DNA of 64,000 bases, from positions 2,249,501 to 2,313,500 of the forward strand of contig CP127080.1 of assembly GCA_030252795.1 (NCBI GenBank). The letters run 5' to 3'. The notes under the pieces were generated by a model. The model was not told where the DNA came from. It did no database searches and saw only the letters and a list, made by a program, of their open reading frames with translations. The translations under genes were made by a program, and so were the position numbers. This DNA comes from Porticoccaceae bacterium LTM1 (GTDB taxonomy: Bacteria > Pseudomonadota > Gammaproteobacteria > Pseudomonadales > Porticoccaceae). The number at the start of each line of letters is the position of its first letter. Position 1 is the first letter of the stretch. Positions 1-14,965 of this stretch are shown here, piece after piece.

Positions 1-806
1 AGGATATCGCGTGTAAAGTCCGCTTCACCAACCGATACACCGCCGGAGGTAATCACCACATCCGCTTCCTTGTCGGCTCGCAGAAAAGCATCGCGAATAC
101 TGTCCGGATTATCTTCCACAACACCGAGATCCAGCACCTTTGCACCCATTTCATTTAGCAGGGCATAGAGTGCCGGCCGGTTTGAATCGTAAATACAACC
201 ATTTGGCAGCGTCTCTCCCGGTTGACGCAGTTCGTCACCGGTAGAAAAAAGCGCCACCGTGATTTGCCTGAAAACCCGAACTTCCGAAATACCAACAGAG
301 GTAAGTAAACCGATATCCACCGGGCTGATTCTGCGCCCTTTAGACAACACTACCTGCCCTTTGCCAATATCCTCACCCCGACGCCGAATCGCTTCGCCGA
401 GTTTAACGCTAGTTAAAAGCGAAATCTGGCCATTGTCGTCATGCACATTTTCCTGCATCACAACAGCATCTGCCCCTTCCGGGATCTGCGCTCCGGTCAT
501 TATGCGCACGCACTGGCCAGCTTCGACGCGGCCATCAAAAGGGCTGCCGGCAAAACTTTTTCCGATCTGGGTAAATACCGTTACCGACGCCAGGTCAGCG
601 TGGCGCAAGGCATATCCATCCATGGCGGAGTTATCATATCCGGGAACATCGATTAGTGAAATGACGTCCTCCGCCATAATTCGCCCGGCCAGCATGTGGA
701 CGGGCACCATCTCGGTTTCGGTGACGGGAACCATAACCTGCTGAATTTTTTCCAAAGCCTGCTCAATCGGCATCAAACCCGGCGCGTCACAACAGGAGAC
801 CATCAT
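1..806 (-). CDS. moeA: Molybdopterin molybdenumtransferase MoeA (3' end beyond window)
   Basis: MoeA inserts molybdenum into adenylylated molybdopterin in the cytoplasm, the last step towards the Mo cofactor that nitrate reductase needs. The translation shows the N-terminal MoeA signature (VPGYDNSAMDGYAL), then RIMTGAQIPEGADAVV, and the start of the MoaB/Mog-like domain (STGDELRQPG, TSGGVSVGEADFTRD). About 268 residues are visible; a full protein is near 400, so the C-terminal part lies beyond the window edge. Its ATG overlaps the narL stop by one base (TAATG), which suggests translational coupling, and GAAAGGGGG upstream serves as ribosome binding site. Co-transcription with narL ties cofactor supply to nitrate sensing. 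Family assignment is firm. Confidence 0.95.
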   Translation of the reverse strand, partial: MMVSCCDAPGLMPIEQALEKIQQVMVPVTETEMVPVHMLAGRIMAEDVISLIDVPGYDNSAMDGYALRHADLASVTVFTQIGKSFAGSPFDGRVEAGQCVRIMTGAQIPEGADAVVMQENVHDDNGQISLLTSVKLGEAIRRRGEDIGKGQVVLSKGRRISPVDIGLLTSVGISEVRVFRQITVALFSTGDELRQPGETLPNGCIYDSNRPALYALLNEMGAKVLDLGVVEDNPDSIRDAFLRADKEADVVITSGGVSVGEADFTRDI

Positions 807-1459
807 TAACCCCCTTTCTGGTGGTTAACCATCCACACCGCCGCTTCAACGCGGCTGCGTAAATTGAGTTTCTTCAGGAAATGCTTAACGTGTACCTTGA
901 CCGTACCGTCAGATATATCCAGCTCACGGGCAATCAGCTTGTTACTCATACCCTTGGCAATCAGTTTCAGGATTTCGTATTCACGGCTGGTAAGGCTTGC
1001 CAGTGCCTGGTTGCCCGGCTTTTCCGGCCTTCTCAGCGCCGATGCCAGAATCTCGGTCAATTTGGCGCTCATCACCATCTTGCCCAATGTCGCTTCCTTG
1101 AGTTTCTCGACAATCTCTTCGGGGTCCATATCCTTCAGCAGGTACCCGTCTGCGCCACCGCGAATCGCCTCAACAACATCTTCATCGTTATCGGAAACCG
1201 TCAGCATGATAATGCGGGCATCAATACCTTTTTCCCGCATCAGGCGCAGTGTTTCCAGGCCATCCATCCCCTGCATATTCAGGTCCATGGTGATCAGGTC
1301 CGGCTCCAGCTCCATCGCCAGTTCAATCGCTTCTTTGCCAGAACTGGCTTCACCAACAACGGTAAGTTCATCTTCCAGATCCAGAAGCTGTCTCAAGCCC
1401 TTTCTCAGCAGCGGATGGTCGTCCACCATCATTATGGTGGCAGGTTGATCCTGATACAT
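806..1459 (-). CDS. narL: Nitrate/nitrite response regulator NarL
   Basis: Two-component response regulator of 217 aa. The receiver domain (about 1-125) carries the acidic pair Asp13-Asp14, the phospho-acceptor Asp59 in the TMDLNM motif and the conserved Lys in LLKD. A linker leads to a LuxR-type helix-turn-helix (about 150-212; LTSREYEILKLIAKG, SDGTVKVHVKHFLKKL). Family knowledge: phosphorylated by NarX, it binds TACYYMT heptamers and activates nitrate respiration genes. Two such paired sites lie in this window, upstream of narK and narG. Its partner kinase narX is about 7.6 kb away on the same strand rather than adjacent as is usual. It is divergent from narK and overlaps moeA by one base. 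Confidence 0.95.
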   Translation of the reverse strand: MYQDQPATIMMVDDHPLLRKGLRQLLDLEDELTVVGEASSGKEAIELAMELEPDLITMDLNMQGMDGLETLRLMREKGIDARIIMLTVSDNDEDVVEAIRGGADGYLLKDMDPEEIVEKLKEATLGKMVMSAKLTEILASALRRPEKPGNQALASLTSREYEILKLIAKGMSNKLIARELDISDGTVKVHVKHFLKKLNLRSRVEAAVWMVNHQKGG

Positions 1460-1546
1460 GTGGCTCTCCAGTCTGGTCGTTTACTTTAGGGCCTAGCATA
1501 ACGCCTTCATTTCCAAAAAAAAATTTTAACTGCTGGGTAGGCTATA

Positions 1547-1562
1547 TACCCACAAGTAGGTA
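1547..1562. promoter_or_regulatory. NarL/NarP 7-2-7 operator upstream of narK
   Basis: TACCCAC-AA-GTAGGTA: two inverted heptamers close to TACYYMT separated by exactly two bases, the arrangement bound by NarL and NarP. A third heptamer-like sequence on the opposite strand (CTGGGTA, 1533-1539) lies just upstream. The centre is about 210 bp from the narK start and about 95 bp from the narL start. The rest of this roughly 300-bp divergent spacer shows no clear FNR box. Confidence 0.75.
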
Positions 1563-1764
1563 GCAGTTGTTCGATACTCAAAATGGCTCTACAGCCATAT
1601 ATTTTCAGCATTCCCAACAGTCTCCCGAACAACACCCATACAGAAATTACCTCCAGATGCTCCCCATAATGATCACTATTTCTACCCATTGAAGGCGGTT
1701 GTTAGCTCTACCGTGCTGAACGATAGTGCATCGTGACCAATTTAATAACACTGGAGTTCGCACT

Positions 1765-3378
1765 ATGGCAGATTTACATAAGTGGGACCCGGAAGATGAA
1801 CACTTCTGGAAGTCCGAAGGAAAAAAAATTGCCAATAGAAATCTATGGATATCTATCCCCAGCTTGCTGTGTGGCTTTGCCGTATGGCTGTACTGGGGAA
1901 TTATCACCGTACAGATGCTGAATCTGGGTTTTCCGTTCGCCAAAGCCGAATTGTTTACCCTGATGGCAATCGCTGGCTTAACCGGCGCTACCCTGCGTAT
2001 CCCCAGCAGCTTCTTTATACGCTTGTGCGGTGGGCGGAATACCATCTTCTTCACCACAGCGTTGCTAATGATTCCGGCCATTGGAACTGGCTTTGCACTG
2101 CAAAGCCAGGACACCCCGCTCTGGCAATTCCAGCTGCTGGCCCTGCTCTCCGGTTTGGGTGGCGGTAACTTTGCCTCATCAATGTCCAATATCAGCTTCT
2201 TTTTCCCGAAAAAACAACAGGGCCTGGCTCTGGGCCTGAATGCCGGTCTTGGCAACTTCGGGGTAACCACCATGCAGATTCTGGTGCCGCTGTTTATGAC
2301 ATTTGCCGCATTTGGTGCACTGGGCGGTGATCCGCTCACCCTGATTAACACCTCAGGCACCCTTATCGGCAAAATACCCGCTGGCACCGATAGCTATATT
2401 GCTAATGCCGGTTTTGTCTGGCTGCTGTTTTTGATACCGCTGTTTTTCCTCACCTGGTTCGGCATGAATAACATCCGCACCGAAGATGTATCGCCCAATA
2501 TCGGTTCACCGCTGACTGCCTTTGGCCTGATAACTCTCATGTTACTGCTGGGCATGGTAATCGCTGCCTCAGGCTTGTGGTTAATGCTGCCGGAATCCGC
2601 AAATGGCTCCGGTTTTGGTGTGGCAAAAGAGATTGTTCTGGTGCTGGTTGTAGCAGCCACCGTAGTGGCGCTGAAATTAATTCCCGGCCAGATCGGCCAG
2701 AGCCTGGCCCGCCAGTACAAAATATTTAACAACCGTCACACCTGGGTGATGAGTGTTATTTATACAATGACCTTCGGCTCTTTTATCGGCTTTTCCGCCT
2801 CATTCCCACTGGCGATCAAAGTGATCTTTGGTTACAGCCACGTAATGGTCGATGGCGTAATGACACACGACACCGTTAACCCGAACGGCCCAAGCGCCCT
2901 GATGTACGCCTGGATGGGACCATTTATCGGCGCGCTGATTCGCCCTGTGGGTGGCTGGATTTCCGATAAGTTCGGCGGCGCACTGGTTACCCAGATCTGC
3001 TCAGTCGTCATGGTAGGCAGCGCACTGGGGGTAGCCTACTACATGCACGCTGCCTATCATTCAGCAACACCGGAAACCTTCTTTGTGCCCTTCTTCCTGC
3101 TGTTCCTGTTACTTTTTGCGGCCACCGGCATTGGTAATGGCTCCACCTTCCGCACCATCGCCATGGTATTCCCGAAAGAGCAGGCAGGCCCGGTATTGGG
3201 TTGGACCTCTGCAATCGCCGCCTACGGTGCCTTCTACATTCCCAAAGTACTGGGTGAACAGATCAAAGCAGCGACACCGGAAGTGGCACTGATTGGCTTT
3301 GCAGTGTTCTATGCGGTTTGTATCTTGATTAACTACTGGTTCTATCTGCGCAAGGATGGGGAGTTTTACAATCCTTGA
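1765..3378 (+). CDS. narK: Nitrate/nitrite transporter NarK
   Basis: Inner-membrane MFS transporter of 537 aa, above the roughly 460 aa of E. coli NarK because of an extended periplasmic-type loop near residues 190-220. It brings nitrate to the cytoplasmic active site of NarG and/or exports nitrite. Visible NarK features are about 12 hydrophobic segments, Gly-rich signature stretches (ALLSGLGGGNFASSMSN and TGIGNGSTFRTIAMVFPKE) and the conserved Arg in TGATLRIPSSF. I chose the ATG at 1765, 13 codons inside the longest frame, because GGAG lies 9 bases upstream and the protein then starts MADLHKWDPED. A NarL-type operator lies upstream and a strong terminator follows. Confidence 0.95.
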   Translation: MADLHKWDPEDEHFWKSEGKKIANRNLWISIPSLLCGFAVWLYWGIITVQMLNLGFPFAKAELFTLMAIAGLTGATLRIPSSFFIRLCGGRNTIFFTTALLMIPAIGTGFALQSQDTPLWQFQLLALLSGLGGGNFASSMSNISFFFPKKQQGLALGLNAGLGNFGVTTMQILVPLFMTFAAFGALGGDPLTLINTSGTLIGKIPAGTDSYIANAGFVWLLFLIPLFFLTWFGMNNIRTEDVSPNIGSPLTAFGLITLMLLLGMVIAASGLWLMLPESANGSGFGVAKEIVLVLVVAATVVALKLIPGQIGQSLARQYKIFNNRHTWVMSVIYTMTFGSFIGFSASFPLAIKVIFGYSHVMVDGVMTHDTVNPNGPSALMYAWMGPFIGALIRPVGGWISDKFGGALVTQICSVVMVGSALGVAYYMHAAYHSATPETFFVPFFLLFLLLFAATGIGNGSTFRTIAMVFPKEQAGPVLGWTSAIAAYGAFYIPKVLGEQIKAATPEVALIGFAVFYAVCILINYWFYLRKDGEFYNP

Positions 3379-3402
3379 TTTGCGAGGTTAACTGCTTAAA
3401 AA

Positions 3403-3429
3403 GGCGAGCCTCTTAAGGCTCGCCTTTTT
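3403..3429 (+). terminator. Rho-independent terminator after narK
   Basis: Perfect 8-bp stem GGCGAGCC / GGCTCGCC with a six-base loop (TCTTAA), followed by TTTTT, 24 bases after the narK stop. It closes the narK transcript just before the cassette array begins. Confidence 0.9.
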
Positions 3430-3449
3430 ATTTGGGACCCCCCCACCAC

Positions 3450-3515
3450 GAATAACAGCATGCAAACCGACGAAAGTAGTTACTTCATTTTTTACGTCGG
3501 ATTGTTTTTATTAGG
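3450..3515 (-). repeat. attC-like site, distal end of the cassette array
   Basis: Imperfect palindrome after the VOC gene. Arms CAAACCGACG (3463-3472) and CGTCGGATTG (3495-3504) surround a spacer of 22 bases. On the minus strand it ends GCTGTTATTCG, resembling the GTTRRRY recombination core. The other end (CCTAATAAAAAC) is a decayed YAAC box. This is the last site of the array before the narK terminator. Confidence 0.6.
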
Positions 3516-3921
3516 TTTTAATTTCGGAAAGAGAATCCGACACATACTGATATTGATAGGTGGTTATTTCGTGCATATTGCCGTCTAAATCATTGAAGTA
3601 CAGTGACCAGGATATTTGATGGTCAGCACACCTTAACAGAATACCCGCCTTCTCCAAATAAGACTTCCACTCCAAAAAAGCTTTACCATCAGCTTTAAAA
3701 GCAATGGCTGTAGATGGCGTATGGTTTTCAACATAAAAAAGCGCAAGATGAATATTACCGCCGGGATCTTCTATAGTTAGCGGCCCATGCTTGTCCTTGG
3801 CCCAAACTTCAAGCTCTTTATTTACAACGAAACCTAAAACATCTTTGTACCATGCAGCGGCTTTTTCTCTGTCCTTAACATAAACGTGTATATGGTCAAT
3901 TCCGATTAATTCTGGAAACAT
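3511..3921 (-). CDS. VOC (glyoxalase/bleomycin-resistance fold) protein, cassette gene
   Basis: Protein of 136 aa with one vicinal-oxygen-chelate domain: IDHIHVYVKDREKAAAWYKDVLGF at the start and YFNDLDGNMHEITTYQ near the end, with His and Glu at the usual metal-ligand positions (IDHIHV, HEITT). Such proteins are metal-dependent lyases, dioxygenases or drug-binding proteins; the substrate cannot be read here. I chose the ATG at 3921 because AAGGAG lies 6 bases upstream; the longer frame runs towards the preceding attC. VOC proteins are common cargo of integron cassettes, and attC-like palindromes flank this gene on both sides. Confidence 0.8.
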   Translation of the reverse strand: MFPELIGIDHIHVYVKDREKAAAWYKDVLGFVVNKELEVWAKDKHGPLTIEDPGGNIHLALFYVENHTPSTAIAFKADGKAFLEWKSYLEKAGILLRCADHQISWSLYFNDLDGNMHEITTYQYQYVSDSLSEIKT

Positions 3922-3950
3922 TTCGATCTCCTTTATTAGCAACTCGCTCA

Positions 3951-4008
3951 CTTAACAAATCAAGAAGGGACCAGCTTTACTGCGTCCCTCTTCTTTGATT
4001 TGTTAAAG
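3951..4008 (-). repeat. attC site (best conserved in the array)
   Basis: Long near-perfect palindrome. TTAACAAATCAAGAAGGGAC (3952-3971) pairs with GTCCCTCTTCTTTGATTTG and following TTAA (3984-4006) around a 12-base centre. On the minus strand the ends are TTTAAC and GTTAAGT, matching the RYYYAAC / GTTRRRY cores, with two extra bases in one arm as expected of attC. The AACAAATCAA and GGGAC blocks resemble Vibrio-type repeats. Confidence 0.85.
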
Positions 4009-4010
4009 CT

Positions 4011-5096
4011 TTATTGCACTTCACTTGGTTGGTATTCCTGGCTATAAGGTGTCGACAACATATCCACAATTCCTATTTCATTGCGGTATACATATACAAC
4101 AGCGATTATCACGCAGATACAGCCGAAAGCCACAATGGCACTTACGCTCTTTGGTGGATTATCTGGAAGGGTTATATCAGTTCCTTTTCGATCAAGATGA
4201 TCAGAGTACAAATCGCAAAGAGCCAGCACATAGATTGGTCTGAGGAACAGCATAATTATGGCAACTGCTATTAGTATTGGCACAGCTGCCCAAAAATAGA
4301 AGGTGTAGATATGGCCATAGATCTCATCACCTTTGGGTACGATATCTACAGTCATAAATAAGAAGATAGCTCCCACGTAGGCCCCAATACCAATTATCCA
4401 GCAAAGTGCCGAATAACCCGCCCGAAGCTTAGCTACTTCTATAAAGTTGTCTTTGACGAAAACCACAGAGTTTTTGCCTGATTTAATTAGGTTGCTACCT
4501 GTTACTATACTTGGCAGAACCCCGGATATTCCTAACTTCCATGCATAGTATAAAGCTTCATTTAGAGCTCGTTTGGCTGGCGTTGTCCTGTCATTCTTTT
4601 TGGGAAGACGCTTAAGTATTTGGTTTACCGTAATCCAGCCATCAATCCAGTGAAATGACCATAAAGACCAGCTTTGCGGAAGAACAACCTTTAAGCAAGT
4701 TGCCACGGTGGACTCACTACCTTGCTTATGCAAGAAATGGGTAGCCCCCATACACCCAGTTAATATTCCTACAGGGAAAGCGACCACACCTACACAAACA
4801 AACGACCAAGCAAACAGAATCAAATCAGCAATTGACCCTTTATCTGACTCTGCGGCACTACGCCATACCCCCTCTGGTATCCAGTCAAGCATTTGAACCC
4901 ATATGAGATAACCAATTCCAATCGACACCCACTGTAGTAGACCAAAGAAGAAAATCTCTTTTTCTTTGAAGCCGAGTGATATTGCGTAACCAACTCTTGA
5001 GCTGAAACTAGCGATTCCACCAGAGGGCTTTTTCTCAATATCAGGGAGGTTTTTTATTTCATCCCTGACAAAGTCTATTTTATTCAAAACTCCCAC
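4011..5096 (-). CDS. Hypothetical multi-pass membrane protein, cassette gene
   Basis: Protein of 361 aa that I do not recognise. It has about six hydrophobic segments: near residues 45-70, 90-115, 225-250, 265-290 and 310-335, plus a weaker one around 185-200. A soluble loop between them includes WSFHWIDGWITVNQ. The N-terminus (about 40 aa) is cytoplasmic-looking and charged. Translation probably starts at GTG 5096, with AAGGAG five bases upstream. It is unusually long for a gene cassette. The stop codon lies two bases before the attC core, the tight packing typical of cassettes. No function is proposed. Confidence 0.65.
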   Translation of the reverse strand: MGVLNKIDFVRDEIKNLPDIEKKPSGGIASFSSRVGYAISLGFKEKEIFFFGLLQWVSIGIGYLIWVQMLDWIPEGVWRSAAESDKGSIADLILFAWSFVCVGVVAFPVGILTGCMGATHFLHKQGSESTVATCLKVVLPQSWSLWSFHWIDGWITVNQILKRLPKKNDRTTPAKRALNEALYYAWKLGISGVLPSIVTGSNLIKSGKNSVVFVKDNFIEVAKLRAGYSALCWIIGIGAYVGAIFLFMTVDIVPKGDEIYGHIYTFYFWAAVPILIAVAIIMLFLRPIYVLALCDLYSDHLDRKGTDITLPDNPPKSVSAIVAFGCICVIIAVVYVYRNEIGIVDMLSTPYSQEYQPSEVQ

Positions 5097-5117
5097 GCTG
5101 ACTCCTTATGTGAGATC

Positions 5118-5190
5118 GTTTGCATCTTTAATACCTGTCTGGGGCAGACTGAGCAACGCGAAGGCCGTCCCAGCCCCATAGAGGCGACTA
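5118..5190 (-). repeat. Diverged attC-like palindrome
   Basis: Between two cassette genes. Arms around CTGGGGCAGAC (5138-5148) and GTCCCAGCCCCATAG (5167-5181) can pair over about 10 positions. The expected end boxes are decayed: on the minus strand the gene-proximal core reads GTATTAAAG in place of GTTRRRY. Called from position and symmetry only. Confidence 0.4.
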
Positions 5191-5210
5191 ACATACGCTG
5201 GCTATGGATT

Positions 5211-5615
5211 TTACTTTAATTGACTACTTAATTTAGCGCTGATTTTAAATTTGTAAAACACCCAAAACACCGAAATGTACAAAAATGAACCCCAAACTAC
5301 ATTAGCCAATTTCCATAAACTTCCATCAAGACAATAAAGTGCAACCGCAAAAATTAGTGTGCAAGAAAATACAAACCACAGTGAATACTGGTGGTATGTA
5401 TGTTTATTGCAATAATTCATGATGCCAACAAATATAGATGGAATCATGATTATCAATGCTATTAGAGAAAAATAGAATGGCAGCAAAAATACACTTTGAA
5501 GATAGCGCTCTGAAAAATAACCAACCACCCTGAAGTCACCACTAAGCCAAAGACCCAAGTTTAAAGCGACCCAAGGAGCAAGGATTATTGCTGCAAAAAA
5601 TCGTAGCTTACTCAT
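5211..5615 (-). CDS. Hypothetical small membrane protein, cassette gene
   Basis: Protein of 134 aa with four predicted membrane segments (about residues 5-25, 42-62, 75-98 and 103-122) and short charged ends (MSKLRFF and KFKISAKLSSQLK). I do not recognise the family. The start ATG at 5615 follows the attC core GTTATAGC almost immediately, leaving no room for a normal ribosome binding site; expression may depend on read-through or leaderless initiation. Its AT-rich composition contrasts with the flanking nar genes. Confidence 0.55.
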   Translation of the reverse strand: MSKLRFFAAIILAPWVALNLGLWLSGDFRVVGYFSERYLQSVFLLPFYFSLIALIIMIPSIFVGIMNYCNKHTYHQYSLWFVFSCTLIFAVALYCLDGSLWKLANVVWGSFLYISVFWVFYKFKISAKLSSQLK

Positions 5616-5617
5616 AT

Positions 5618-5692
5618 GCTATAACGCCGCAAACAGTGTTGAGGCGCACGCAGTGTGGCGCCCCCCTGCTTTGCTTTTTTATGAGGTTTAGC
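5618..5692 (-). repeat. attC site
   Basis: Minus-strand ends are GGCTAAAC and GCGTTATAGC. Inner arms GCAAACAGTGTTGAGGCGC and GCGCCCCCCTGCTTTGC pair imperfectly around ACGCAGTGTG. It overlaps the stop codon of the upstream cassette gene (5688) and abuts the ATG of the next (5615), as expected of a cassette junction. Confidence 0.7.
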
Positions 5693-6182
5693 CAATTACT
5701 GGCACCCCCACAACATATGGTGCCAGCCCTTTTTCATGCCGCCTCATGAAATGCTCGTAATTCCTTTTATAATTTCCATTTTCATTCATCGTTAGAAGCC
5801 ACTCTCTAACCGAAGAGACTATATCCGAGCAAAATTCTTTCAGATCCAAGTTCAGGGCATCGTTAAAGATATTCTTGTGCATATAGATATTTGGATTTGG
5901 CTCAAGGAATATAATTTTTGAATACCCAAGACTTTCATGCTTCGAGCGTCCTTGATGCAACACTCCACATCGATAGGCATAGCACTGATCCCCCGTGAGA
6001 ATCCGCTCATATTTAGGGGCGACCCACTTATTAAACCAAGCTTTGTATCGATTTCCAGTCGCTCGACCATTATTTGACTCCAACGCGCCACAAATATCTG
6101 GCAAGGCTAAAGCAACGTAAAGCCCTAGCAAGTAGCTTCCTGTCTCGACCGAACTCTCAACTTGGTCCAATAGTGTGTTCAT
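5688..6182 (-). CDS. Hypothetical protein with HEPN-like Rx4H motif, cassette gene
   Basis: Soluble 164-aa protein, largely helical in appearance. It starts LLDQVESSVETGSYLLGLYVALALPD and carries YRCGVLHQGR near residue 90, an R-x4-H arrangement like the catalytic motif of HEPN ribonucleases found in toxin-antitoxin and phage-defence proteins. The rest (FLEPNPNIYMHKN, FCSDIVSSVREWL) fits a helical bundle but is not diagnostic. The HEPN reading is an inference from one motif. The start ATG 6182 has GAGGAAC upstream. attC-like sites lie on both sides. Defence and toxin genes are frequent integron cargo, which makes the idea reasonable but unproven. Confidence 0.55.
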   Translation of the reverse strand: MNTLLDQVESSVETGSYLLGLYVALALPDICGALESNNGRATGNRYKAWFNKWVAPKYERILTGDQCYAYRCGVLHQGRSKHESLGYSKIIFLEPNPNIYMHKNIFNDALNLDLKEFCSDIVSSVREWLLTMNENGNYKRNYEHFMRRHEKGLAPYVVGVPVIG

Positions 6183-6190
6183 CCCTGTTC

Positions 6191-6258
6191 CTCATAACGA
6201 CTCAAAAACCGGCAACCAGTGGCGTAGCCTCGTTTTTGGTTGTCCGGCGCCCTAGGCA
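6191..6258 (-). repeat. attC-like site
   Basis: Minus-strand ends are GCCTAGGGC and GTCGTTATGAG. Inner blocks CCGGCAACCA and TGGTTGTCCGG can pair with one bulge. Lies between two cassette genes, with the GTTATGA core 7 bases before the next ATG. The outer arm is partly decayed. Confidence 0.5.
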
Positions 6259-6284
6259 CGTAGTTCTTTGACTTATTAAGTTCC

Positions 6285-6641
6285 TCACGACCGATAGATC
6301 CTTATACTGCTAACCGTACCAGACTCATCAAGCACCAACTTCATAATATACGGGTCAAAATGAAAGTATCCTGGCCCTGCACCCAACTGATACATAAGCC
6401 ACTTCGGCTTATCAGGATAAACGAAAGGCTCACCCAGCTTTGCAACCAATTTATCCTTTCGGAGACCATCCAGGCCACCAAATATTTTCACCCAAGCAGC
6501 CATACGCAAGCGCGTCCAATCCCCCGAAAGCGTGTCTATAGATGCGCTATCCCACCGCTCTCTATTGAACGGTTTTGGCCCATACATGTAGGCTCCCACC
6601 ACAAATATCACGGCAAAAAATAACAGTAGCTTTCGCATCAT
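6285..6641 (-). CDS. Hypothetical membrane-anchored protein with SmpA/BamE-like pattern, cassette gene
   Basis: Protein of 118 aa. An N-terminal hydrophobic stretch (LLLFFAVIFVVGAYMYG, residues 5-21) looks like a signal anchor. The C-terminal part reads GLRKDKLVAKLGEPFVYPD, then PYIMKLVLDESGTVSSIRI, the pattern of small SmpA/OmlA-type domains (G-x-x-x-x-x-v-x-x-L-G-x-P, then a beta strand with d-x-x-G-x-V). That resemblance is by eye only. I placed the start at ATG 6641 with GGAG six bases upstream, because the longer frame would begin inside the attC site. Role unknown. Confidence 0.55.
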   Translation of the reverse strand: MMRKLLLFFAVIFVVGAYMYGPKPFNRERWDSASIDTLSGDWTRLRMAAWVKIFGGLDGLRKDKLVAKLGEPFVYPDKPKWLMYQLGAGPGYFHFDPYIMKLVLDESGTVSSIRIYRS

Positions 6642-6653
6642 TGTTGCTCCAGC

Positions 6654-6711
6654 GCTTAACACCCAAAGCATGCGCTCGTTTACGTTTCGCTTTGCCTTTG
6701 TTTGTTGGGGC
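6654..6711 (-). repeat. attC site
   Basis: On the plus strand it begins GCTTAAC (6654-6660), an exact RYYYAAC, and ends TTTGTTGGGG. Arms ACCCAAAGCATGC and GCCTTTGTTTGTT pair imperfectly. It overlaps the last codons of the upstream cassette gene. Confidence 0.75.
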
Positions 6712-7084
6712 CGGGGACTACCACTTTTGGTGGCTCCATCGAAAGTACGCTAATGCACTCATTTAGCCCAACGATTAAGTATTCCCGCACATCAGAGTGA
6801 TTCTGAGATACGAACCCACTACGTGTTGATTCAAGATCATACCAGCCACCTGATGAGATCTGAAAAAGCCAACCATCGTTAAGATTGAGGTGATCCCAAT
6901 ACTCCAGAAGATTGCCCTCATCAAGAACCCGAAAGCCTACTGAAGAATCGAAAGTAACAACAATGGGATCAGCGCTGTAGGCTGGCTCAATATGAATCAC
7001 AAGATTATGGAGATCATAGTCAAGCCGAATAATTTCAGGCTTTGTGTCCAATGGTCCTTCTATGACTTCAAAGTTCACTTCCAT
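6680..7084 (-). CDS. Hypothetical soluble protein, cassette gene
   Basis: Acidic protein of 134 aa without signal or membrane segments. The N-terminal half is beta-rich (NLVIHIEP, DPIVVTFDSSVGFRVLDE), followed by EYWDHLNLNDGWLFQISSGGW and a helix near residues 95-110. The last dozen residues (PGPNKQRQSET) are encoded by attC sequence. I chose ATG 7084 over the longer frame because the latter reads through the whole preceding attC site. The fold vaguely recalls small immunity-type proteins, but I cannot name a family. Confidence 0.5.
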   Translation of the reverse strand: MEVNFEVIEGPLDTKPEIIRLDYDLHNLVIHIEPAYSADPIVVTFDSSVGFRVLDEGNLLEYWDHLNLNDGWLFQISSGGWYDLESTRSGFVSQNHSDVREYLIVGLNECISVLSMEPPKVVVPGPNKQRQSET

Positions 7085-7102
7085 GCCACTTTCCCTCTGG
7101 TG

Positions 7103-7199
7103 CACCCTAACGCCCAGCTTAGGAGCGGACTTGTAGCTGCGAAGCAGCGGAAAGGCCGCCCCTGCCCCGAAGGGGCAATTACAGCCGCTTGTTAAATGC
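7103..7199 (-). repeat. attC site (about 97 bp)
   Basis: Minus-strand ends are ATTTAAC (exact RYYYAAC, 7191-7197) and GCGTTAGGG (7105-7113). Outer arms AGCGGACTTGTA and TTACAGCCGCTT pair with a bulge. The centre contains two further small hairpins (AGCTGCGAAGCAGC and TGCCCCGAAGGGGCA), giving the branched variable region of a longer attC. Confidence 0.8.
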
Positions 7200-7496
7200 T
7201 TACTCTCCGTACCACATTTTTTTGATAACACCTGCTGTCACAGGGGAATCGCCAGACAGCAATTTCTCTACTATATTCACTAACCTCTCGCATCCACACT
7301 TGACTAAGTGCTCTCGCCACACTGGCGAAGCGACATCAAGCGGCTTTAAGTTACTGCCCACTCCCCCAAATCCTACTCCTTCAGCCACGGCTATAGGAGC
7401 CTCATCATTAGAGGTGTCGATCCATACCCAATATGGGTGTAAATACGTATCTCGCTTTTCTTCAAAATAGCCAATTTCAATTAGATTTGGATTCAT
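7200..7496 (-). CDS. Hypothetical small protein, cassette gene
   Basis: Soluble protein of 98 aa, beginning MNPNLIEIGYFEEK and ending IKKMWYGE. A Gly-rich stretch (GVGFGGVGS) and two neighbouring Cys (VKCGCERL, about residue 74) stand out. No family recognised. The longer frame upstream runs through the preceding attC site, so the ATG at 7496 is the likely start. No convincing ribosome binding site is visible. Confidence 0.5.
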   Translation of the reverse strand: MNPNLIEIGYFEEKRDTYLHPYWVWIDTSNDEAPIAVAEGVGFGGVGSNLKPLDVASPVWREHLVKCGCERLVNIVEKLLSGDSPVTAGVIKKMWYGE

Positions 7497-7502
7497 AAAA
7501 TC

Positions 7503-7580
7503 ATTTAATGCCGTCGGCAGGGGCCAAAAGCAAGAGCGAAGCGGTGGTTTATGCCCCCCTCTGACTGACTTTGTTATGGG
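7503..7580 (-). repeat. attC site
   Basis: Minus-strand ends are GCCCATAAC and GGCATTAAATG; the second has A in place of the first G of GTTRRRY. Inner arms GCCGTCGGCAGGGGCC and CCCCCCTCTGACTGAC pair over most positions. It overlaps the stop codon of the next cassette gene. Confidence 0.65.
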
Positions 7581-8638
7581 CTTACCGTCCAGTAGGTAGT
7601 GAATATAATATTCGCTACCACACCAGTAGCAACGCCTACTACTATTGATGCAATAAATGACACCCACTTATTGCTGTATTTTTTATCAGCTTTCTCTTTG
7701 TGCTGTTCTGATTTTTTTGTTAGAAGGATATAGCTAGGCCTCTTTGTGTCAGCACTGGTTTCCGCCCATACACCAAGGAATATAGCTAAAAACAAAGAAA
7801 AAATGGTGAACACAAAAACTGAAAAGAAAAACTTACCCCAAAACCCACTTGCCATAAGTTCTAATAGCATATTCAGCTTTTGATCAATTTTTGCTGGATC
7901 ACTTATAAGTGGTTTTAACAGCTCTATCTGCTCTTGGCTTATTTTACCGGCTGAGTAAAAGCAAGCAATAATAGAGCAAACAAAGAAAGTTATTGCGAGC
8001 CCCATAGATATTTTGCCGGAGTGCTTCCGAGTAAATTCCCTCACCTTACTTTCAGGTAGAAGAATGTGCTTGCAGTGGCCGCTTAACAGTGATTCGATGT
8101 CAGCACCCCACGTTCTAGCTGTGTGGAAAACTCGGAATGATATATGCCCGCCACCCATAAGCCTAGATATCGGTATAATTGGGGAGTCTTCTGAGTCAAA
8201 TATTGCTATACCACCAGCCCCTTTTGTCACGAAGGACATTTCAATTTCTTGCTTTTCGGGATGTTCTCTATCTTGGAATTTCACAAGAAATGACCAGCTT
8301 AAATGAGCTTGGGTAGCTATGAGAGGCCTTACTTCAGTGTAACTTTTGAAATCTTCTAAGCTGTTTAATAAGACTGTTGAGTTATCATCAAAAACAAGCC
8401 TGATAGTGAACTGAATAAGGCTGGCTTGATTTTGCTGTCTCACTCGCTGACAAACGAGGTTGTATACGCTCTCAATATCATTGTGGCCAATCTCGAAAGA
8501 TCCAGTGTATGCTTTGGATATGGTTTGCGGCTTTCCTAAGAGTCCACTTATAAAGTCGCTAAAGTTTTCCGGCTCACAGGGTAATGCAATCGCAAATTGC
8601 GCCTTATCTCTTTCTCTTTCAATTACTTCCGTATCCAA
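7574..8638 (-). CDS. Hypothetical membrane protein with large soluble N-terminal region
   Basis: Protein of 354 aa. The first ~205 residues are soluble and acidic (FSDFISGLLGKPQTISKAY, SWSFLVKFQDREHPEKQEIEMSF). They are followed by hydrophobic segments near 210-230, 268-295 and 330-350, and a Lys-rich loop (KKSEQHKEKADKKYSNK) before the last one. I do not recognise it. The start is TTG 8638 with AGGAG eight bases upstream. Its stop overlaps an attC site; upstream there is GTTATGG but no complete palindrome, so it is the first gene of the array in transcription order and may mark its boundary. Confidence 0.6.
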   Translation of the reverse strand: MDTEVIERERDKAQFAIALPCEPENFSDFISGLLGKPQTISKAYTGSFEIGHNDIESVYNLVCQRVRQQNQASLIQFTIRLVFDDNSTVLLNSLEDFKSYTEVRPLIATQAHLSWSFLVKFQDREHPEKQEIEMSFVTKGAGGIAIFDSEDSPIIPISRLMGGGHISFRVFHTARTWGADIESLLSGHCKHILLPESKVREFTRKHSGKISMGLAITFFVCSIIACFYSAGKISQEQIELLKPLISDPAKIDQKLNMLLELMASGFWGKFFFSVFVFTIFSLFLAIFLGVWAETSADTKRPSYILLTKKSEQHKEKADKKYSNKWVSFIASIVVGVATGVVANIIFTTYWTVSP

Positions 8639-8679
8639 TTTTATACTCCTATCTTGATTGATCCATAACAGTTAATTAT

Positions 8680-8740
8680 GAAGCCGTGGCTTTTTTTGAC
8701 GGCTTCGTATATTTGTGCTCATAACTTTCTTTTTATGAGC
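8680..8740. repeat. Two adjacent perfect inverted repeats at the array boundary
   Basis: GAAGCCGT...ACGGCTTC (8680-8706, 8-bp stem, 11-base loop) is followed ten bases later by GCTCATAA...TTATGAGC (8717-8740, 8-bp stem, 8-base loop). They lie in the AT-rich stretch between the first cassette gene and the narX side. They could be transcription terminators, a decayed attC or a relic of attI. The remainder of 8639-8774 shows nothing else. Confidence 0.55.
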
Positions 8741-8774
8741 TACTTTTTCTTTATATTCAATATGTTATCTGTAC

Positions 8775-9041
8775 TTATGACCAATAACGACCAACGGGCT
8801 CAAGCAATGACCTTGTATAGTCGGCTTCATATTTCTGCTTGCTAGAATGAGGGCTTTGGAGTGCAACTGTTTTTATTACAGTTATATTGACGTGATATTC
8901 ATGGACGACATACGCACTCCCTTGCCGGTCAAACCAGTTTGCTTTCTGAATCAGCTGAATCTGGCTATCTGTCCACAGAGCTTTAGCCTGCAAACAGAAC
9001 AAACATACCTGTACCGAACCAAATACTATATTAACTTTCAC
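8775..9041 (-). CDS. Possible small exported protein downstream of narX
   Basis: An 88-aa frame from GTG 9041. The N-terminus MKVNIVFGSVQVCLFCLQAKA looks like a signal peptide with an AKA cleavage site, followed by LWTDSQIQLIQKANWFDRQGS and a beta-like stretch (YVVHEYHVNITVIK). An upstream TTG at 9086 is an alternative start, about 20 bases after the narX stop. No family recognised, and no attC flanks it. It is on the narX strand and may be co-transcribed with it. Coding status is uncertain. Confidence 0.35.
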   Translation of the reverse strand: MKVNIVFGSVQVCLFCLQAKALWTDSQIQLIQKANWFDRQGSAYVVHEYHVNITVIKTVALQSPHSSKQKYEADYTRSLLEPVGRYWS

Positions 9042-9107
9042 TACAAGCGCTACCCCAAAAAGATGGGTGCGCTTGATGTTGAGCAATTTCCGGGTTTCCC
9101 CGGTTTG

Positions 9108-10952
9108 TTAAACCATCTTCACCTGCTGGGACCGGGTGTATTCCGGCACAAACCGGAAGTGTACTTGCGTACCCCCCTCTTCCCCTTTCTGGATGGTCAC
9201 TTCCCCACCCAAACTGCGGCTGCGCTCCTGAATAATGGCAAGCCCGTAGTGGTTCAGTTTATTGGGGTCGTCAGGGATTCCGACTCCGTCATCACATACG
9301 GAGAGAGTAACCAGATCACCTTCCTGAGCCACCGACACTCGAATATTTTTCCCTTTGGAGTGGTAAAAGGCATTCTGCATTGATTCGCGAGCGATCTGCA
9401 GCATGTGAATTTCTTCCTGCGGGGAGAACGGGACATGTTCGAGCTGATAATCTAGGTGAAACTCAAATTCATCGGAGCGGCTTTTCAGCTGCTGTATAGT
9501 TTGTTCAAAAGCTGCTTTAAGGCTATCGCCATCCAGCTTGAGGCGGAATGTTGTAAGCAGTTCACGCAATTCCCGATACGCGGAGTTGAGGCCATTGCGC
9601 AACTCACCCATCACCTCGTCAACCTGCTCCTGAACATTTTCTTTCTGTTGCAATTTTTGCAGTCGTGATACCTGAATTTTCAGGTAGGAGAGCGCCTGAG
9701 CCAAAGAGTCATGAAGCTCCCTGGCAATAACGGTGCGCTCTGCCATCAGGGCAATACGGCGATCCTGCTCCTGCTGTTGCATCATGTGCAGGCCAGTTGC
9801 AATTTGCTCCGCAAGCGACTCAAACAATTGATGCTGCCACTCTTCCATTGGCCTGTCGGGTTGGCCACGAACAACCAACACTCCGTAGTTGGTGCCATAT
9901 TTGTTTAATGGGTATTTAAGGTCACCAACATGTGGAGCCGGGGCATTCACATGACCGATACAACTGCCACAATCCCCTACAGCACATTTTTCCGGAAGCT
10001 CTTTTTCCACGGTATGCAGACGAGCAAAAGGCTTATTGCATGACGGTGTCATAATACACAGATCCAGATCCTCTACGCCGGTCACTTCTGCCAACTCGGT
10101 AATGATCGGATCAAAATTATAATTTCCCGGCTCCAGATGATTCAGCATGCTGGAAGTTTTAAACAACAGTTCCAGCGATGCATTGCTCTGACGTAATGCC
10201 TTCGTTTTATAGCGTACTTTTTCTTCCAGGTAAGACTGCGACCGGTGAATCGACTGGCTCATATTATTCATGGTTTTTGCCAGAACAGTCAGCTCGCCTT
10301 TACCCTCCACTTTGGCAACGGCGGTAAAATCCCCCTGGCCGATTCGCTTGGCAACATTCGTTAATGTTGTAAGGGGTTTTTCAATGTGGCGATTGATAAT
10401 AAACATAGCAAACGCGGTCATCAGCAGAGTCACAAACAACGCCACACTTTGTATCAAGCGTATGCTGGCAATATTTCGCTCGGCTTGTCGCTGATAAGCC
10501 GTTACCAGGTTATCGATTTGAGCAACAAACCCCGAAATAAGCTCTAACACTGACTGATTTTCTGCAGTACTGACTCCCTGCTCAAAAGCAGGCTTAACGC
10601 GGTTTAACCATTCGCTTTTTACCTGCGCATGTAACTCTTTAAGCGATGAGGAATCGGCCAATATTAATTGCGACGTCAGTGCACCATCGTTCAGGTCCGA
10701 CTCAAATTTTTCGATCAGGGACTCAATAGACGCACTTTCATTTTCCACACCGGCTTCTTTCTGCTGAACATGCGCCACCATCCTGTAGCTTTGCATACGC
10801 AGCGAGCCTGCCACGTTAACCGCAAGCGCATCTGACTGGGCATGGTCACTGATAAATACCGAGCTGAACATACTGATGACAGCCATAGAGCTGATACAGA
10901 ACATCAGAGCGATGATTTTAAAAACGGTGGAGTGGAGGAAATCGTATTTCAT
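9108..10952 (-). CDS. narX: Nitrate/nitrite sensor histidine kinase NarX
   Basis: Inner-membrane sensor kinase of 614 aa. It has a first membrane helix (about 11-33), then the P-box for nitrate binding (VAGSLRMQSYRM, about 47-58, including the critical Arg). A periplasmic helical domain, second membrane helix (about 168-188) and HAMP follow. A Cys-containing central module (CIMTPSCNKPF, CAVGDCGSCIG) comes next, then the HisKA_3 H-box (IARELHDSLAQALSYLK) and a HATPase domain (CDDGVGIP near the end). It phosphorylates NarL. It is divergent from narG across a 251-bp spacer with a NarL-type site. Unusually it is not next to narL; a cassette array and narK lie between. Confidence 0.95.
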   Translation of the reverse strand: MKYDFLHSTVFKIIALMFCISSMAVISMFSSVFISDHAQSDALAVNVAGSLRMQSYRMVAHVQQKEAGVENESASIESLIEKFESDLNDGALTSQLILADSSSLKELHAQVKSEWLNRVKPAFEQGVSTAENQSVLELISGFVAQIDNLVTAYQRQAERNIASIRLIQSVALFVTLLMTAFAMFIINRHIEKPLTTLTNVAKRIGQGDFTAVAKVEGKGELTVLAKTMNNMSQSIHRSQSYLEEKVRYKTKALRQSNASLELLFKTSSMLNHLEPGNYNFDPIITELAEVTGVEDLDLCIMTPSCNKPFARLHTVEKELPEKCAVGDCGSCIGHVNAPAPHVGDLKYPLNKYGTNYGVLVVRGQPDRPMEEWQHQLFESLAEQIATGLHMMQQQEQDRRIALMAERTVIARELHDSLAQALSYLKIQVSRLQKLQQKENVQEQVDEVMGELRNGLNSAYRELRELLTTFRLKLDGDSLKAAFEQTIQQLKSRSDEFEFHLDYQLEHVPFSPQEEIHMLQIARESMQNAFYHSKGKNIRVSVAQEGDLVTLSVCDDGVGIPDDPNKLNHYGLAIIQERSRSLGGEVTIQKGEEGGTQVHFRFVPEYTRSQQVKMV

Positions 10953-11061
10953 GTCTCTGTGGAGATACCTCTAAAAACCTATGAGTATAGTCATCTGACT
11001 CTTATTCACAACAAATGCTTCCCTCCCCCCCACAGTACAAGGGGACATGACTTTATGCGAC

Positions 11062-11077
11062 TACCTACAAAGTGGTA
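11062..11077. promoter_or_regulatory. NarL/NarP 7-2-7 operator between narX and narG
   Basis: TACCTAC-AA-AGTGGTA: inverted heptamers TACCTAC and TACCACT, two bases apart. The second matches TACYYMT exactly. It lies 127 bp before the narG start. Another heptamer-like sequence (GGAGGTA, reverse TACCTCC) follows at about 11100. No FNR box with correct spacing was found in 10953-11203. Confidence 0.75.
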
Positions 11078-11203
11078 TCCCCCCAAAATATGCCCATTTG
11101 GAGGTACTTGTGGGCGTAGTAGCCATCCTCTTTAATCGAGCCATCGCTATGTGCAGCGCGCTTTTTAAAGCGGTGCCATCCGAACATTCAGGAGGAGTCA
11201 GGC

Positions 11204-14200
11204 GTGAGTCACTTTTTAGACAAACTGCAGTTTTTTAAGAGAAATGAGACCTCGTTTTCCGACGGTCATGGTGTTACCACCGATGAGAACCGTGGCTGGG
11301 AAGACGGCTATCGCCGTCGCTGGCAGCACGATAAAACCGTACGCTCAACTCACGGGGTTAACTGTACGGGTTCGTGCAGCTGGAAAATCTACGTCAAGGA
11401 CGGTCTGGTTACCTGGGAAACCCAGCAAACCGATTACCCGAGAACCCGTCCAGACCTGCCCAACCATGAGCCACGCGGTTGCCCTCGGGGCGCCAGCTAC
11501 TCCTGGTATATATACAGTGCCAACCGCCTCAAGTACCCGAAAGTGCGCAAACGCCTGGTTAAACTGTGGCGCGCCGCCAAAGAGCTTCACAAAGATCCGG
11601 TAGATGCCTGGGCATCTATTGTCGAAGACCCGGCCAAAACCAAAGAGTACAAACAGCAGCGCGGCATGGGTGGCTTTGTTCGCTCCAACTGGAACGAAGT
11701 CAACGAAATTATTGCCGCCTCGAACGTCTATACCATTAAAACCTACGGCCCGGATCGGGTAACCGGTTTCTCGCCGATCCCCGCGATGTCGATGGTTTCC
11801 TACGCCGCCGGTGCACGCTATCTGTCACTGATCGGCGGCAACTGCCTGAGTTTCTACGACTGGTACTGCGACCTGCCACCGGCCTCACCGCAAATCTGGG
11901 GTGAGCAGACCGACGTTCCAGAATCCGCCGACTGGTACAACTCCAACTACATCCTGTGCTGGGGTTCCAACGTACCGCAGACCCGTACCCCCGATGCCCA
12001 CTTCCTGACCGAGGTGCGCTACAAGGGCACCAAGGTAGTGGCGATCACTCCCGACTACTCCGAGGTCGCCAAACTGACCGATCACTGGCTGGCGCCCAAA
12101 CAGGGTACTGACGCGGCTCTGGCGATGGCGTTCGGTCATGTCATCCTGAAAGAGTTCCACGTCGAGAACCCATCGGCCTACTTTACTGATTACGTACGCC
12201 GTTACACCGACTTCCCGATTCTGGTGATGCTGGAACAGGATGAGGATGGCAAGCTGCATCAGGGACGTTTCCTGCGTGCATCCGACCTCTCCGACAATCT
12301 GGGCCAGGAAAATAACCCGGAATGGAAAACCATCTGCATTAATGAGGACAGTGGTGAGTTAGCCTCCCCTACCGGCTCCATCGGTTATCGCTGGGGCGAG
12401 AAGGGCAAATGGAATATTCAGCAACTGGATGGTAAATCCGGAGCTGAAATCACCCCCAAACTGTCCCTGAAAGACGGTCACGACGAGTTGGTGAATGTCG
12501 CCTTCCCGTACTTTGGCGGTGCTGAGCACGAGTTTGGTTACTTCCAGAATACTGAGCACGACGAGGTTATCGAACGCCGCATTCCGGCCAAAAAACTCAC
12601 CCTTGCCGACGGTTCCGAGGCGCTGGTTGCTACCGTATTCGACCTGACCCTGGCCAACTACGGGGTAGCCAACGGCTACGATGATCCCAATGTCGCCAGC
12701 AGCTACGACGACGACATTCCCTACACCCCGGCCTGGCAGGAACAGATTACCGGTGTGGGCCGCGAAGACGTTATCCAGATTGCCCGCGAGTTCGCCGACA
12801 GCGCCAACAAAACCCGTGGTCGCTCAATGATCATCGTCGGTGCCGGCATGAACCACTGGTACCACATGGACATGAACTACCGCGGCCTGATCAACATGCT
12901 GATGATGTGCGGCTGTATCGGCCAGAGCGGTGGCGGCTGGGCGCACTACGTGGGTCAGGAAAAACTGCGTCCGCAAACCGGCTGGCAACCGCTGGCGTTT
13001 GGCCTGGACTGGCAGCGCCCGCCTCGCCATATGAACGGCACCTCGTTCTTCTACAACCACTCCAGCCAATGGCGCTACGAAAAACTGCATATGACCGAAG
13101 TGGTGTCGCCGCTGGCCAATAAAGAAAAGTGGGCCGACTCCATTATCGACTACAACACCCGCGCCGAGCGCATGGGTTGGCTGCCGTCGGCACCGCAATT
13201 GGGTACGAACCCGCTGCAACTGTGCAAAGAAGCCGCCGAGAAAGGTGTATCACCGCAAGAGTATGCCGTGGAGCAACTGAAGTCCGGCGCCCTGAAGTTT
13301 GCCTGTGAAGATCCGGACAACCCGCAGAACTACCCGCGCAATATGTTTATCTGGCGCTCCAACCTGCTGGGTTCTTCCGGTAAAGGCCACGAGTACATGC
13401 TGCGTCACCTGCTCGGTACCAAACACGGCCTGATGGGCAAAGATTTGGGCGAAAGCGGCGACGAAAAACCGAAAGATGTGGTTTGGCACGATGACGCGCC
13501 GGAAGGCAAAGTGGATCTGCTGGTAACCCTGGACTTCCGTATGTCCACCACCTGTCTGTACTCGGACATCGTGTTGCCCACTGCTACCTGGTACGAAAAA
13601 GACGACCTCAACACCTCGGATATGCACCCGTTTATTCACCCGCTGAGTGCTGCGGTAGACCCGGTGTGGGAGTCCCGTTCCGACTGGGATATTTTCAAGG
13701 GCATCGCCAAACAGTTCTCCAAAACCGCAGAGGGACACCTTGGCGTAGAACAGGACCTGGTAACCCTGCCTATTCTCCACGACACCCCTGCCGAGCTGGC
13801 TCAACCGTTTGGTGTGAAAGCCTGGTGGAAAGGCGAATGCGACCTGATTCCGGGTAAAACCGCACCCAGTATGATTCCGGTGGAGCGCGACTACCCCAAC
13901 ACCTACGCCCGCTTTACCTCGGTAGGCCCGTTGCTGGAAAAACTCGGCAATGGCGGTAAAGGCATCAGCTGGAATACCGAAAAAGAGGTCGAATTCCTCG
14001 GTGAACTGAACCGGCGCCATATTGAGGAAGGTGCCAATAAAGGACGCCCCAAAATCGAAACCGCCATTGATGCCGCCGAAGTTATTCTGTCGCTGGCACC
14101 GGAAACCAATGGTCAGGTTGCAGTAAAAGCCTGGGCGGCGCTGAGCGAAATTACCGGGCTGGACCACACCCATCTGGCCAAGCCGAAAGAAGAGGAGAAG

Positions 14201-14965
14201 ATCCGCTTCCGTGATGTTCAGGCACAACCGCGCAAAATCATCAGCTCCCCTACCTGGTCGGGGCTGGAGGACGAGCATGTCTCCTACAACGCCGGTTACA
14301 CAAACGTCCACGAAATGATTCCCTGGCGCACCGTCACCGGTCGACAGCAGTTCTACCAGGATCACGAGTGGATGCGTGATTTCGGCGAGACCATGTGTCT
14401 GTACAAGCCACCGATCAACCTGAAAACCGTCAAGCCGATCATGAATCAGAAGCCCAACGGTAACACGGAGATCGCACTCAACTGGATTACCCCGCACCAG
14501 AAATGGGGTATCCACAGCACCTACTCCGACAACCTGTTGATGCTGACCTTGTCGCGTGGTGGCCCCATTGTGTGGCTCTCCGAACCGGATGCCGAGCGCG
14601 CCGGCATTGTCGATAACGACTGGATCGAGGTGTTCAACGTTAACGGTGCCATTGCTGCCCGGGCCGTGGTGTCCCAGCGTGTACCGGAAGGTATGAGCAT
14701 GATGTATCACGCCCAGGAGCGGATCGTGAACGTGCCCGGTGCGGAAACCACCAAAACACGCGGTGGCATTCACAACTCGGTAACCCGCGCGGTGATGAAA
14801 CCAACGCACATGATTGGTGGTTACGCCCAGCAATCCTACGGTTTCAACTACTACGGCACCGTGGGCTGTAACCGTGATGAGTTTGTGATTGTGCGCAAGA
14901 TGAGCAAGGTCGACTGGCTGGATGAAGACAGTATCGATACCGATCTGAACATGGTGGAGAAATAA
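11204..14965 (+). CDS. narG: Respiratory nitrate reductase A, alpha subunit NarG
   Basis: Molybdenum-containing catalytic subunit of 1253 aa that reduces nitrate to nitrite at the cytoplasmic face of the inner membrane. The N-terminal FS0 motif HGVNCTGSCSW, with His in the first position typical of NarG, and the later GCPRG Cys bind a [4Fe-4S] cluster. YDWYCDLPPASPQIWGEQTD carries the Asp molybdenum ligand. Length and sequence closely follow E. coli NarG from end to end. The start is GTG 11204 with GGAGGAG upstream. narH follows after 2 bases. Several long antisense frames inside it are codon-bias shadows. Confidence 0.98.
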   Translation: MSHFLDKLQFFKRNETSFSDGHGVTTDENRGWEDGYRRRWQHDKTVRSTHGVNCTGSCSWKIYVKDGLVTWETQQTDYPRTRPDLPNHEPRGCPRGASYSWYIYSANRLKYPKVRKRLVKLWRAAKELHKDPVDAWASIVEDPAKTKEYKQQRGMGGFVRSNWNEVNEIIAASNVYTIKTYGPDRVTGFSPIPAMSMVSYAAGARYLSLIGGNCLSFYDWYCDLPPASPQIWGEQTDVPESADWYNSNYILCWGSNVPQTRTPDAHFLTEVRYKGTKVVAITPDYSEVAKLTDHWLAPKQGTDAALAMAFGHVILKEFHVENPSAYFTDYVRRYTDFPILVMLEQDEDGKLHQGRFLRASDLSDNLGQENNPEWKTICINEDSGELASPTGSIGYRWGEKGKWNIQQLDGKSGAEITPKLSLKDGHDELVNVAFPYFGGAEHEFGYFQNTEHDEVIERRIPAKKLTLADGSEALVATVFDLTLANYGVANGYDDPNVASSYDDDIPYTPAWQEQITGVGREDVIQIAREFADSANKTRGRSMIIVGAGMNHWYHMDMNYRGLINMLMMCGCIGQSGGGWAHYVGQEKLRPQTGWQPLAFGLDWQRPPRHMNGTSFFYNHSSQWRYEKLHMTEVVSPLANKEKWADSIIDYNTRAERMGWLPSAPQLGTNPLQLCKEAAEKGVSPQEYAVEQLKSGALKFACEDPDNPQNYPRNMFIWRSNLLGSSGKGHEYMLRHLLGTKHGLMGKDLGESGDEKPKDVVWHDDAPEGKVDLLVTLDFRMSTTCLYSDIVLPTATWYEKDDLNTSDMHPFIHPLSAAVDPVWESRSDWDIFKGIAKQFSKTAEGHLGVEQDLVTLPILHDTPAELAQPFGVKAWWKGECDLIPGKTAPSMIPVERDYPNTYARFTSVGPLLEKLGNGGKGISWNTEKEVEFLGELNRRHIEEGANKGRPKIETAIDAAEVILSLAPETNGQVAVKAWAALSEITGLDHTHLAKPKEEEKIRFRDVQAQPRKIISSPTWSGLEDEHVSYNAGYTNVHEMIPWRTVTGRQQFYQDHEWMRDFGETMCLYKPPINLKTVKPIMNQKPNGNTEIALNWITPHQKWGIHSTYSDNLLMLTLSRGGPIVWLSEPDAERAGIVDNDWIEVFNVNGAIAARAVVSQRVPEGMSMMYHAQERIVNVPGAETTKTRGGIHNSVTRAVMKPTHMIGGYAQQSYGFNYYGTVGCNRDEFVIVRKMSKVDWLDEDSIDTDLNMVEK

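Follow-up and report, generated by a model that had tools for sequence, protein, structure and literature searches.

The genes between narK and narX in the genome of Porticoccaceae bacterium LTM1 very probably represent a decayed chromosomal integron, which entered the narK-narX space as a block. The window, i.e. the whole stretch of 64,000 nucleotides analysed here, covers positions 2,249,501-2,313,500 of the one-contig genome of 3.13 Mb.

Insertion into the nar locus

Between the ends of narK (3378) and narX (9108), which stand 5.7 kb apart in the window, eight minus-strand genes are present. The original prediction had described genes of mostly unknown function here, correctly as to location and strand, while counting seven instead of eight. 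The genes, with the two flanks, are:

1726..3378, plus strand: narK, left flank, host locus (gene calls, synteny)
3511..3921, minus strand: cassette gene 8, VOC (glyoxalase/bleomycin-resistance fold) protein, 136 aa (Pfam PF00903, E=1.3e-9)
4011..5096, minus strand: cassette gene 7, membrane protein, 361 aa (weak PF10110, under the cut-off)
5211..5615, minus strand: cassette gene 6, membrane protein, 134 aa (gene calls, Pfam)
5688..6182, minus strand: cassette gene 5, no assigned function, 164 aa (gene calls, Pfam)
6285..6638, minus strand: cassette gene 4, no assigned function, 117 aa (gene calls, Pfam)
6680..7084, minus strand: cassette gene 3, no assigned function, 134 aa (stop within attC)
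7200..7496, minus strand: cassette gene 2, no assigned function, 98 aa (gene calls, Pfam)
7574..8638, minus strand: cassette gene 1, adjoining attI, membrane protein, 354 aa (TTG start behind AGGAG; stop within attC)
9108..10952, minus strand: narX, right flank, host locus (gene calls, synteny)

The terminator hairpin of narK (3397-3430) is intact, and the block hence starts just after it. The gene order narL< narK> narX< narG> is encountered in many Alteromonadales and some others, and in the loci of ten relatives the narK-narX gap spans merely 81-214 bp (81 bp in G029, of the same family) with the block absent, congruent with the proposed insertion in the nar locus. In other loci the gap measures 0.8-7.9 kb and is filled by other DNA, indicating that the site is prone to insertions. 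This synteny set was collected by a narK search, and a narX protein search of the named genomes gave no match. From these comparisons we infer that the block entered an Alteromonas-type nar locus between narK and narX, with the entry as one block being read from the flanks at the level of alignment. The nar cluster itself (narL-narK-narX-narG, window 806-14965) was probably also acquired by horizontal transfer, judging from narK and narG being nearer to Aestuariibacter/Alteromonas (88% identical) than to the same-genus Porticoccus sp. W117 (G001; narK 80% identical), in which the nar gene order is different.

The cassette products are mostly orphans with almost no family matches; apart from the VOC-fold protein they consist of larger membrane proteins and short proteins of no assigned function. 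The VOC protein scores far under every fosfomycin-resistance (Fos) cut-off, and no resistance is claimed. The 361-aa protein of gene 7 has no relative among 97 genomes, and the cassette status of this gene is consequently based on its position.

attC sites of the array

To recognize attC sites we exploited a covariance model trained on 27 sites from other genomes, mainly from the intact purL integrons of G001 and G002. Only the attC arms were modelled, as plain alignment of full-length attCs misaligned the arms; in the resulting model 82.8% of cells pair, with a covariation score of 0.600 vs 0.161 in shuffles. The window sites were then rescored glocally with a free loop using the training alignment, and the strong scores below originate from our own rescoring script. 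Six attC sites were recovered at 3.9-7.6 kb, each following a gene and every one on the minus strand, confirming the imperfect palindromes of the original prediction at their places. Two further sites in the list were missed by the model, one decayed and one a candidate identified by eye:

~3446-3518, minus strand: candidate last attC, adjoining narK (by eye; CCGACG/CGTCGG arms, GTTATTC end)
3950-4008, minus strand: attC, score 23.0
5140-5216, minus strand: decayed attC, mutated in both core sites, sharing 87% identity over 78 bp with an attC of the intact G002 integron
5619-5684, minus strand: attC, score 37.3, genome-wide E=0.0013, 86% identical to another G002 attC
6192-6281, minus strand: attC, score 42.1
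6654-6710, minus strand: attC, score 23.1
7105-7197, minus strand: attC, score 28.0
7503-7579, minus strand: attC, score 27.1, genome-wide E=8.8

The largest gap between good attCs is about 1.6 kb, so that the array has the composition demanded of a CALIN (at least two attCs, less than 4 kb apart), and the six sites surpass the two below which the prediction of a cassette array was to be abandoned. No attC pair in the window exceeds 72% identity. A local Infernal search was weaker, returning a single site with E=0.023 and a further two with E about 2, because long loops are penalised. Rfam yielded no match, and a loose AAC/GTT palindrome search was rejected as not specific in favor of the trained model.

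Could terminator-like hairpins in an ordinary small-gene cluster resemble attCs by chance and generate the same picture? Several of the genes are indeed short orphans, as such a cluster would offer. However, the scores are far above those of the controls, with none of at least 12 in the other 52 kb of the window (12-64 kb) and a single match of at least 23 in 345 kb of shuffled array sequence, and all sites fall on one strand. Moreover, two of the sites are 86-87% identical to attCs of an intact integron, and the array is accompanied by the attI and integrase stump described below. The window and shuffle controls refute this explanation, leaving it a negligible probability.

attI and integrase stump at the array head

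The original prediction confined the array to 3450-8740. The feature however reaches 9089, since it includes an attI (~8666-8777) and a 5'-terminal piece of an integron integrase gene (intI), both of which had been overlooked:

8666..8777, minus strand: attI, type A, ending with GTTA at 8669-8666, where the first cassette begins (copy at 3.089 Mb)
8901..9089, plus strand: intI stump, 5' end of an integron integrase gene (TIGR02249 profile, homology)

The integron-integrase profile TIGR02249 matches at 8943-9089 (plus strand, positions 1-49, E=9.1e-5), and the start of the frame at 8901 was set by homology. With about 63 codons, the stump corresponds to roughly the first fifth of an integrase gene and stops 18 bp before the stop codon of narX. 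It is 42-45% identical to the intact IntI of G013 over 71-80 residues, and 39% identical to the class 1 IntI1. In integrons intI runs divergent from the array, an orientation that is also displayed by the stump. Thus, the assertion that the window holds no integrase gene is valid for a working one, whereas the plus-strand stump at 8901-9089 had escaped attention.

Stump and attI have a second copy at 3.089 Mb, 77% identical over about 216 and 112 bp, respectively; the similarity breaks off at GTTA, the point from which the cassettes start. Comparison with this copy and with the attI end of G013 places a putative attI beside the 5' end of intI. Scanning for promoters yielded no more matches than expected by chance.

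These elements also bear on whether the array is a CALIN that arose through off-site (attG-type) cassette insertion into the nar locus, with an integrase acting in trans. Such an origin would explain attCs without a working intI as well as a foreign locus carrying the insert, and events of this kind occur experimentally, as cited in PMC12444791. Off-site cassettes would however not bring an attI and an intI 5' end with the right spacing and divergent orientation; an attG-type insertion consists of cassettes without attI or intI sequence, yet both are found here. As the attI head and the stump are retained, off-site insertion of loose cassettes is not the best account, and we consider it improbable.

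Remnants elsewhere in the genome

No full-length intI was detected anywhere in the genome, and no match exceeds the TIGR02249 cut-off. The integrase that was to be sought elsewhere is accordingly missing, and with it an intact chromosomal integron nearby. The earlier proposal of an array close to a chromosomal integron or left by off-site integration is therefore not favored: attI and stump head the array, in a genome without an intact integron. Instead, attC and attI searches uncovered seven further attI remnants, five with intI stumps, yielding eight loci with three attI types. The other type-A remnant, at 3.089 Mb, retains a stump and one clear attC. Type B occurs at five loci: a stump is accompanied by five attCs at 0.492 Mb and by two at 1.368 Mb, whereas at 1.967 Mb the stump stands without any attC found; at 2.089 Mb a weak stump goes with two attCs, and at 2.121 Mb the attI is degenerate and again no attC was found. 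The type-C remnant, at 0.411 Mb, has one attC and no stump.

The stumps at 1.368 and 1.967 Mb have a premature stop in common (RHFSC*TIKGYLC), which argues that these blocks were copied after inactivation. A single fixed intI cut point for all blocks was dismissed, since the stumps end at differing codons, about 33 to 54 (G001 numbering). Two stumps terminate at, or close to, repeats of REP-like character (GGATCCCCGCCTGCGCGGGGATGACG type; L169:9160-9320 and L077:6520-6660), representing possible break sites. By eye, a LexA-box-like motif (CTGT-N8-ACAG) is located upstream of intI in W117 (L050:9460-9480) and beside the 0.492-Mb stump (L077:6840-6865), and looks degenerate at the other stumps.

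Regarding the 3.089-Mb remnant, its first cassette (L059:11039-12808) encodes a 589-aa protein that by eye resembles an OLD-family ATPase/nuclease, possibly a defence gene. The same remnant contains an inverted copy of the attI hairpin about 240 bp from attI (L059:10749-10776), bordering a stretch that is missing from the window copy.

attI-headed arrays in relatives

The purL place harbors intact integrons in the same-genus G001 (Porticoccus sp. W117) and G002. This place, inspected as a possible old home, is empty in the genome of the window. The single-contig G002 has one full-length intI, with a type-C attI at purL, and in addition a second type-C attI at 1.534 Mb, the last 52 nt of which are identical to those of the active purL attI, followed by three attCs without intI. 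Two type-B attI arrays without full intI, at 0.924 and 1.931 Mb, carry seven and six attCs, respectively. In the metagenome-assembled genome G016, four attIs agree completely over 55 nt, and each of them is followed by different genes. The dispersed layout is thus not peculiar to one genome. When all attI copies are compared in pairs, the mean identity amounts to 81-98% within the final 25-50 nt ahead of GTTA, drops to about half farther upstream, and is about 30% immediately behind GTTA.

Certain neighbourhoods recur with differing attI types: trkA-trkH has type A in the genome of the window and type B in G002, while the bio operon has type B and type C, respectively. At aceF, type B in the genome of the window is matched by a B-like attI in G010, of another genus, in opposite orientation (L206:6036-8217, L169:8800-9850). 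The far-end gene of the 0.492-Mb array (L077:10495-11259) is also related to that of the W117 purL integron (L050:15774-16427); such related far-end genes with differing intI sides suggest rearrangement through the platform. Free cassette exchange between loci of one genome found little support, considering that few near-identical attCs or cassettes are common to the loci.

This distribution raises the prospect of a distributed integron in Porticoccaceae, in which short attI units spread and each found their own array, one integrase serves all in trans, and the window is a satellite of which the integrase has since been lost from the genome. The intact intI and three more attI-headed arrays of G002, one with an attI matching the active one, are congruent with such an arrangement, as are the G016 attIs and the conservation of attI while the stump region decays. 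Service in trans is however a reading of sequence, near-identical attCs or cassettes common to the loci of one genome are few, the G002 type-B arrays do not match its type-C integrase, and G016 is metagenome-assembled. We hold this scenario to be conceivable but rather unlikely.

Proposed history of the block

For the decayed chromosomal integron that we favor, established integron biology would have the integrase once capture cassettes at the window attI through attI x attC recombination. Once intI was truncated, the array would have become frozen, leaving only decay or cassette loss. Should the cassettes be expressed at all, the promoter would lie in the attI/intI 5' region or within cassettes; the former might still serve, which could explain the persistence of that part. 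Following inactivation, blocks may have been copied or moved within the genome; candidate routes are recombination between the repeated platforms and an occasional action of the integrase on attI, of the kind known from Delta-attI cassettes (PMC12901181).

Comparison with known systems

A complete integron has a full-length integrase, an attI beside the intI 5' end and cassettes with attCs in the same orientation. In the window the integrase is reduced to its 5' stump, while the putative attI adjoins this stump and the six attCs all lie on the minus strand. Congruent with the intact purL integrons of G001 and G002, the block exhibits the same attC family, divergent intI, attI and short orphan cassettes, but these relatives have full-length intI and attI types B and C instead of type A. 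Neither does the block resemble a Vibrio-type sedentary superintegron, with its long array of highly similar attCs, as there are only eight cassettes and the attCs are dissimilar.

In the degraded chromosomal integrons of Xanthomonas, intI has been inactivated by stops, frameshifts or deletions while arrays persist (PMC12444791). Analogously, cassette arrays outlast intI here, and arrays without intI are found at further loci. However, in Xanthomonas intI sits at one ancestral place, ilvD (PMC12444791), as opposed to the eight loci that carry attI remnants, of three types, in the present genome; the remnant in the window resides within an apparently acquired nar cluster. Delta-attI-type cassettes of class 1 and 2 integrons likewise place attI pieces away from their own integrase, but in those a shortened attI takes the position of the attC at the cassette end (PMC12901181), whereas here a complete array at a distant locus is headed by attI.

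Decayed integrons are thus already known; for a chromosome with several dispersed attI-headed arrays that lack intI, seemingly a variant, we did not find a description in the literature searched, coverage of which was partial. In having two or more attCs and no full integrase that can be detected, the array resembles a CALIN (PMC9024848), but it possesses attI and an intI stump, which software does not seek outside class 1. Detection software would probably label the window array a CALIN, and being blind to attI outside class 1, it leaves attI-headed arrays hidden among CALINs. Comparison within the genus, in contrast, brings to light three attI types, spread over eight loci in one genome and four in another. 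Comparing attIs hence offers a direct means of telling decayed or satellite platforms apart from the off-site insertion of cassettes, and opens to testing the idea that a single integrase can run several docking sites.
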